A DNA stretch of 35,416 nucleotides from Chryseobacterium gleum (GTDB taxonomy: Bacteria > Bacteroidota > Bacteroidia > Flavobacteriales_D > Crocinitomicaceae), in NCBI GenBank assembly GCA_945888595.1, contig CAMDAO010000015.1, positions 1-35,416 of the forward strand, read 5' to 3'. Numbering within the stretch: position 1 is the stretch's first letter; every line of letters starts with the position of its first letter. The position numbers and the translations under genes were made by a program. Of the stretch, positions 33,125 to 34,242 are shown one piece after another. The notes under the pieces are model-generated. The model was not told where the DNA came from. It saw only the letters and a list, made by a program, of their open reading frames with translations, and made no database searches.

Positions 33125-33255
33125 AATTAATGGCAAAATAACAAAAATTCTTTGAAAGATATTTATTCAAGAATAAATAGTTTTTTTTTAAAAACTAGGA
33201 TTCAATAACTTAAGGTGGAAAGACAACTTTTATTTGAAAAAAGTTAGTTCGTTAC

Positions 33256-33285
33256 TTGTCAGTTAAAATAAACTGACTATCTTTG
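33256..33285 (+). promoter_or_regulatory. Promoter of tRNA-Lys with a dyad in the spacer
   Basis: TTG (33256-33258), a 19-base spacer and TATCTTTG (33278-33285) form a complete promoter 40 bases before the tRNA. The spacer contains GTCAGTT (33258-33264) and AACTGAC (33271-33277), a perfect 7-base dyad that exactly fills the interval between the two boxes. Confidence 0.7.
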
Positions 33286-33325
33286 TACTCGCAATTACAG
33301 CAAAACAGTTACAATTTCAAAACAA

Positions 33326-33398
33326 GATTCTGTAGCTCAGCCGGTAGAGCAATACACTTTTAATGTATGGGTCCTGGGTTCGAATCCCAGCGGGATCA
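33326..33398 (+). tRNA. tRNA-Lys (anticodon TTT)
   Basis: 73 bases folding as a cloverleaf. Acceptor 33326-33332 (GATTCTG) pairs with 33391-33397 (CGGGATC) using two G-T wobbles. D-arm GCTC/GAGC. Anticodon stem ATACA/TGTAT with loop CTTTTAA, so the anticodon is TTT. T-arm CTGGG/CCCAG with loop TTCGAAT. Discriminator A at 33398. The CCA end is not encoded. It is preceded by a complete promoter and followed by a terminator at 33453. Confidence 0.96.
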
Positions 33399-33433
33399 CT
33401 TAACTAATTAAAAATCAGCAAGTTAGAGATACT

Positions 33434-33455
33434 TACTGACAAATGTACTGACAAA
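33434..33455. repeat. Short direct repeats after the tRNA
   Basis: TACTGACAAA occurs at 33434-33443 and 33446-33455, a 12-base period. In reverse complement these contain TTGTCAG, also found at 33256 and, as TTGTCGG, at 34505-34524. Confidence 0.7.
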
Positions 33456-33483
33456 AGCTCTTGAGAAATCGAGAGCTTTTTTT
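33453..33483. terminator. Terminator after tRNA-Lys, possibly bidirectional
   Basis: AAAAGCTCT (33453-33461) and AGAGCTTTT (33472-33480) form a perfect 9-base stem followed by a run of seven T. It also stands at the end of the leftward secreted-protein gene as that gene would read without the inserted element. Confidence 0.85.
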
Positions 33484-33510
33484 CGTTTAGATTATTTTCC
33501 AGTTGGGATT

Positions 33511-33533
33511 GGATCAAACCCGAATGTTGTGGG
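33511..33533 (+). repeat. Left terminal inverted repeat
   Basis: 23 bases; matches the reverse complement of 33870-33892 except at position 12 (G against T). Confidence 0.8.
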
Positions 33534-33816
33534 GAGCTAAAAAAATTACTTTCAAATCTACTACTTTCATATAACCTTCAAATCTACTTCTGTTTTCATT
33601 TCTCACTTTTCCTTGATGAAGAGAAAATGTAATTTTCGAAGACAAGCGGTAGTGCTGGAAGTAAGCAAAAATCAAGGTCCTTTCCAAGGAATTTTTTACT
33701 CCATTCCATTTCGTAAAACCGTACGTAAATACTTTCCTTCACGCTATATTTCGCGAAAAAGCGAAACGCGATTACGGAAAATTTACAACTAATTCTGTGA
33801 AAAGACCATTTCATCT

Positions 33817-34242
33817 TCACTTCGAAATTAAATTAATATGTGACTCATTTTTGTGATATTCTATATTAGCCCACAACATTAGGGTTTGATCCATTGATAC
33901 CCAATCTAAGGATATTAGGCTCTTGCTTGCCAGCTTCACGCCTACCCAAACTTGGTATTCCTCAGAAAGTTCTGCTCTGTCGCTAAGAACATTCCAAACA
34001 ATTCGCTTACTTCCACAGCTCACTGTTGTAATATCACCTGTAAGTGATTTGGGAGTTCCTTTTGTTTGGTTTTGCTCTACAAATAACACCGAGACATCAT
34101 ACAAATCATTTCCAGTACACCCCACTAGATCGTTGGTTATTGCAATATTTTTACCCTCCAAAAAGAAATCTGGATTCTCTATTTGCTGAGCACTATATAT
34201 TGTAATTGAGAAAAGAAAAAGCAGGAAAATTAGTTGTTTCAT
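33817..34242 (-). CDS. Secreted protein whose 3' end was replaced by an inserted element
   Basis: 141 residues as now read. Signal peptide MKQLIFLLFLFSITIYSAQ. The next 90 residues (FFLEGKNIAITNDL, YDVSVLFVE, TPKSLTGDITTVSCGSKRIVW, NVLSDRAEL) resemble a beta-sandwich domain found at the N-terminus of larger Bacteroidota envelope proteins, some followed by barrels or SUMF1-like domains. The last 25 or so residues, from MDQTLMLW on, are encoded by the inverted-repeat element. Without it the frame would read DWVSIPTGKII and stop, and IPTGK recalls the start of a SUMF1 domain, so the gene may already have been truncated. A -7 box TACTTTTG (34264-34271, minus strand) lies 21 bases upstream. Probably non-functional. 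Confidence 0.6.
   Translation of the reverse strand: MKQLIFLLFLFSITIYSAQQIENPDFFLEGKNIAITNDLVGCTGNDLYDVSVLFVEQNQTKGTPKSLTGDITTVSCGSKRIVWNVLSDRAELSEEYQVWVGVKLASKSLISLDWVSMDQTLMLWANIEYHKNESHINLISK
33870..33892 (-). repeat. Right terminal inverted repeat
   Basis: Inverted copy of 33511-33533 with one mismatch. Read leftward it supplies the MDQTLMLW codons at the end of the interrupted gene. Confidence 0.8.

Follow-up and report, generated by a model that had tools for sequence, protein, structure and literature searches.

Features at the tRNA-Lys locus

Near its right-hand end the window, that is, the whole 35,416-nucleotide stretch of DNA analysed here, holds a tRNA-Lys gene, a terminator-like hairpin, a short element bounded by inverted repeats and an opposing ORF that runs into that element:

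33326..33399, + strand: tRNA-Lys (TTT); synteny with the sister species G003 stops at its 3' end (window 33403)
33453..33480, + strand: hairpin with a T run, terminator-like, between tRNA-Lys and the element (AAAAGCTCTTGAGAAATCGAGAGCTTTTTTT)
33503..33510, + strand: left flank octamer, TTGGGATT, with no match to the right flank octamer
33511..33892, no strand assigned: copy of the element, very probably a MITE (miniature inverted-repeat transposable element), 382 bp (the earlier span of 33508-33895 took in the flanking ATTs)
33511..33533, + strand: left terminal inverted repeat, L type, GGATCAAACCCGAATGTTGTGGG, then GGAGCTA
33602..33807, no strand assigned: conserved folded core, a closing stem with internal hairpins
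33817..34242, - strand: 141-aa ORF with a signal-like N-terminus; residues 1-116 from host DNA, 117-141 encoded by the element
33870..33892, - strand: right terminal inverted repeat, its outer 22 nt of L type, GGATCAAACCCTAATGTTGTGG
33893..33900, + strand: right flank octamer, ATTGATAC; across the element only ATT is in common

The two arms of the element (33510-33533 and 33870-33893) are 96% complementary at a spacing of 336 nt. As the initial annotation had stated, two 23-base ends (33511-33533 and 33870-33892) match in inverted orientation at 22 of 23 positions, and the roughly 336 bases that they enclose contain no transposase-sized frame, the longest ORF inside the element being 74 aa; the MDQT-MLW peptide that it had read at both ends is the inverted repeat translated from either end. 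ATT borders the element on each side (GTTGGGATT on the left, ATTGATACCC on the right).

The last 25 aa of the ORF at 33817-34242 (MDQTLMLWANIEYHKNESHINLISK) come from the element and the stop codon lies within it, in keeping with the earlier claim that the element encodes the tail of this gene. Joining the flanks with one ATT is in frame, as had been proposed, but the tail then reads ...SLDWVSIPTGK-stop and not DWVSIPTGKII. The joined WVSIPTGK resembles WVNIPAGTFTMGS, found where a domain of sulfatase-modifying type (FGE) begins elsewhere in the same genome, which makes it plausible, if unproven, that the flanks were once contiguous; in one piece they would read ...CCAGTTGGGATTGATACCCAATC..., and the uninterrupted gene ...GGGATTGATACCC... 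We found no relatives of the secreted gene in 11 congeneric genomes. The best relatives of the 141-aa protein within the bacterial family are ~290-440 aa long and have a different C-terminal part, so the ORF is probably a truncated gene or remnant, and the element accordingly did not interrupt a demonstrably intact gene. The initial picture of an interrupted gene that could be restored by removing the element thus gives way to that of an orphan gene fragment within a stretch of DNA that the sister species lacks. The secreted protein has no Pfam or NCBIfam match, and comparison with PDB gave a non-significant match only. A fragment on contig C153 that carries a sulfatase-modifying domain was considered as the missing half of the gene and rejected, its N-terminus being different.

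Synteny between the window and G003 runs at 88-94% identity up to 33403 and then stops. Downstream of its tRNA-Lys, in ~1.1 Mb of sequence from that species, G003 lacks both the element and the secreted gene and carries a thiolase-like gene instead, so the comparison that had been proposed for this copy, with an empty site in related strains, yields no such site here. Since the syntenic stretch goes no further than the 3' end of tRNA-Lys, the segment 33404-35416 (the contig end) is, as judged by this alignment, lineage-specific. Integrated islands often begin at the 3' end of a tRNA, and the arrangement suggests that an island may have integrated at tRNA-Lys; a second copy of the tRNA-Lys end was not found within the window. 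Another genome of the genus, G001, also has this tRNA-Lys, and there the contig breaks off ~260 bp further on at an element end of R type.

Copies, target duplications and history of the window copy

When the 382-bp unit was searched against the host genome and its relatives, many copies were recovered, which disposes of the possibility, raised at the outset, that there is no other copy. The window's own genome (a 2.62-Mb draft in 190 contigs, 86% complete) has 70 matching pieces in more than 30 places, the best full copies being 88-90% identical; G003 has 69, G001 and G007 are also rich in the family, and other genera hold short pieces of the element only. Most complete copies carry two unlike ends, L (GGATCAAACCCGAATGTTGTGGGGAGCTA) and R (GGATCAATACCAAAAGTTGGGGAGACTA), for which reversed-pattern controls returned 0 matches. 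The two ends are imperfectly matched in other copies, and copy size ranges from 196 to 463 bp. The multicopy family with its precise borders bears out the original view of a non-autonomous inserted inverted-repeat element, and refutes the reading of the window unit as a chance inverted repeat at a natural gene end, which its small size alone would favour and to which we attach virtually no weight.

Nine other copies in the genus are flanked by duplications matching at 7/8 or 8/8 positions, seven of them perfectly (GGAAATTC, AAAATCAC, GTTTTAAA, TAAGTGAC, GAGAAGGG, CTAGTTTT and GTTGTTAG), while none of 3017 shifted control comparisons reached 7/8. The initial annotation had anticipated further copies with ATT-type duplications; instead all nine detectable duplications are 8 bp long. 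The C2 copy, a member of a second subfamily, is flanked by a perfect 8-bp duplication. The copy on contig C86 adjoins a gene that we take from its translation to be RNase HI; the flanks of this copy plus a single GGAAATTC form one 1200-bp alignment to G003 at 96%, and at the equivalent site G003 has exactly one GGAAATTC and no element, that is, an exact empty site. The family therefore moved after the two species split, or was cleanly absent in one lineage.

The window copy is atypical: it has an L-type outer end on either side and is without an 8-bp duplication, with only 2 of 8 matches at the duplication positions. The flanking ATTs to which the initial annotation drew attention are indeed present on both sides, but they are not the target duplication of the family, which is 8 bp. 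Target duplications are often lost in old or recombined copies, and the window copy still counts as a MITE because its membership rests on homology to the other copies. Its right arm is of the R type found at the right end of the other copies (GGATCAATACCAAAAGTTGGGG) only in the inner part; the outer 22 nt are identical to the end of the C2 copy (contig C2 26499-26521). A second copy with two L ends was not found among the family copies.

Homologous recombination with another copy could have supplied the right end together with its flank, in which case the two flanks of the window copy were never contiguous. Such an origin is quite possible, if short of probable, and it fits the missing 8-bp duplication, the C2-subfamily outer end on an R-type inner arm, and the absence of the downstream segment from the sister species. 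The same signature has been so interpreted in Pseudomonas, where the unmatched repeats of an ISL3 element were taken as a hybrid from recombination of two copies (PMC7643977). The plausible conserved peptide motif that spans the joined flanks would, however, then be a coincidence. It is accounted for if a variant with two L ends simply inserted with a true 3-bp duplication, a view that would suit the ATT on each side and the single-ATT join, which stays in frame to give WVSIPTGK. Yet the uniform 8 bp of the nine other duplications, shared by the parent-type IS copies, the chance of about 1 in 64 of a 3-base match, and the lack of other two-L-ended copies in the family leave a 3-bp insertion quite unlikely. 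An ordinary insertion with ~5 bases since lost at one junction is an alternative. After or during insertion, then, the window copy would either have been remade by recombination between copies or have lost those ~5 bp at one junction, and we lean slightly towards the hybrid.

The probable parent insertion sequence and related systems

Of 240 genomes from the bacterial family, 45 contain the motif GGATCANNNCAAAAGTTGGGG (reversed control, 0), and the motif GGATCANNNNCAAAAGTTGGGG bounds a two-ORF element of 1413-1417 bp in several genera, with perfect 8-bp duplications around the copies at L194, L196 and L158. The two ORFs, which are the upstream and downstream parts of an ISAon1-family transposase, match ISAon1 family transposase (NF049917, 1e-134; NF049916, 1.7e-43) and DDE_Tnp_ISL3 (PF01610, 7.4e-56). 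A full-length IS with ends of this kind, which the initial annotation had suggested looking for, thus exists, intact in related genera and as fragments in two sister species. Contigs of G003 and G007 break inside the C-terminal end of an ISAon1 transposase whose 3' terminus (GGATCAAGTCGAATTGTTGTGGGGAGCTA, in inverted orientation) is similar to the MITE L end, and a decayed remnant in G003 (GGGTCAACCCCGAATGTTGTTGGGAGCCA) matches L at 23/26 positions. Within the genus we found no complete ISAon1 but only decayed pieces and such 3' ends where contigs break, and the upstream ORF as a query gave no intact copy and two weak matches. ISAon1 transposase was likewise not found in the window's own genome, where absence from an 86% complete draft in 190 contigs carries little weight.

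The MITE L end matches the IS 3' ends of the sister species at 23/26 and 21/26 positions, the R end matches the IS 5' end of G084 at 22/26, and none of 1000 shuffles was as good. This similarity is evident in ~30 bp at the ends only, and the body has no evident shared sequence. We assign L to the 3' end and R to the 5' end of the IS only tentatively, because in G050 the IS 3' end is R-like, contrary to that assignment. At L221 (G003 contig C3, 1-260) an ISAon1 end lies within a second-subfamily MITE copy, which is a parent-type IS inserted into a MITE.

We are confident that the window unit is a non-autonomous MITE derived from an ISAon1-type IS (ISL3 family, with a two-ORF transposase), an identification that draws on sequence comparison and is made because its ends match the two-gene IS of that type. 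The family is multicopy with shared ends, short and without a transposase gene, and has terminal inverted repeats, 8-bp duplications and one exact empty site (at the C86 copy); an IS with matching ends exists, and the two have the same duplication length, 8 bp being the classical length of direct repeats in ISL3 (PMC7643977). From the ends and the duplication length we infer that the ISAon1 transposase moves the MITE: acting in trans, it would recognise the GGATCAA...GTTG(T)GGGGAG ends, excise or copy the unit, and insert it with an 8-bp target duplication. The window copy lies in the lineage-specific segment downstream of tRNA-Lys, where it supplies the stop codon of a probably truncated gene.

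The MITE resembles the ISAon1-type IS in its ends (GGATCAA...GTTGGGGAG), in its 8-bp duplication and in its occurrence in the same bacterial family, but at 196-463 bp against ~1413 bp it lacks the transposase ORFs and has a folded and unrelated interior. Among Bacteroidota, MITECca01 of the endosymbiont Cardinium is likewise short and has kept its parent's ends while losing the transposase, although it is of IS982-family origin and about 240 bp long (PMC9769881). BrickBuilt and MITE239/464/700 of Porphyromonas gingivalis are also non-autonomous, intergenic inverted-repeat elements; they differ in their IS5-like ends, and BrickBuilt contains a 23-nt minisatellite, not a folded core (PMC4596501). 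REPs, too, are short palindromic repeats interspersed between genes, but they measure 20-40 bp (PMC3733652) and have neither terminal repeats nor target duplications; movement as a REP by a RAYT was therefore rejected for an element of 196-463 bp with terminal repeats and 8-bp duplications. At L042 (5500-5990, 6120-6187) a fragment of a RAYT-like (IS200-type) transposase gene adjoins a different palindrome, CCTCCAGCTTTAGCTGGAGG.

According to a recent review, no mobile elements of bacteria and archaea have been studied less than MITEs (PMC10969869). Our literature searches did not find a description of this MITE family, and the term 'ISAon1' was absent from the literature searched. The family offers a clear case in freshwater Flavobacteriales, where an IS of parent type stands beside dozens of derivatives and both duplications and an empty site are on record. 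Such elements can redefine gene ends and cause false annotations, and this one is located at many contig ends of draft assemblies.

Short units of 324-609 bp with ISAon1-type ends occur in other genera (L170 1501-1957, L208 2109-2493, L168 1501-1824 and L202 2122-2730), the one at L170 with a perfect 8-bp duplication; they probably represent additional MITEs that arose independently within this IS group.

The folded core

From four species we gathered 65 distinct core copies, and an alignment of 39 sequences folds into inner hairpins enclosed by a closing stem. When the leading hairpin is counted in, pairing holds in 97.1% of cells, as against at most 49.5% in slid controls. Two-sided changes were seen at 8 pairs and in 31 cells, compared with 3.3 and 7.1 in shuffles; among them are C-G to U-A in 8 sequences (columns 123/332) and U-A to C-G in 9 (columns 151/209). 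These changes support the core fold, mostly between subfamilies, in a comparison where the structure was derived from the same sequences, which favours it, and where related copies inherit the same change. As RNA the window copy folds with z = -7.5, a value partly owed to its terminal repeats. In a search of window 33250-34000 against Rfam the tRNA alone reached threshold, and the element had no family match. The core is commoner and better conserved than the element ends, it occurs armless as well as with three or more kinds of arms, and in some copies the hairpin tips are swapped for unrelated inserts.

A conserved folded interior raises the question of why a supposedly passive element retains structure. 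The fold, as transcript or as single-stranded DNA, may be kept because it helps the element or because it is tolerated near gene ends. A more ambitious proposal, unlikely in our judgement, is that the core is a separately selected module that was captured more than once between ISL3-type ends, and that it may be a structured RNA or a single-stranded DNA that helps the replication or mobility of its carrier. One could go further and regard the unit as foremost a structured RNA or regulatory repeat (terminator-like or REP-like) whose terminal repeats are incidental. The greater conservation of the core than of the ends, its two-sided changes, the cores without recognisable ends (as on contig C126) and the intergenic location of the copies (10 convergent, 9 tandem and 2 divergent by rough ORF calls) would all suit such a view; the precise ends, exact 8-bp duplications and empty site of complete copies, together with the lack of any Rfam family match, argue against it and make it very unlikely beside a MITE that carries a folded core.

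At L042 (contig C126 of the window's own genome, 1-2340) at least three cores without terminal repeats, with a recurring GATTCGGTTTCTACT motif between them, lie on both sides of a Fic-like gene. At L006 (1501-1960) a hairpin-tip insert, CTTGCTCTATCGTTTAGTCTTCAAAAGCGATGCTTTTTC (element positions ~270-315), matches alone in further genera of the bacterial family (G017 and G023).
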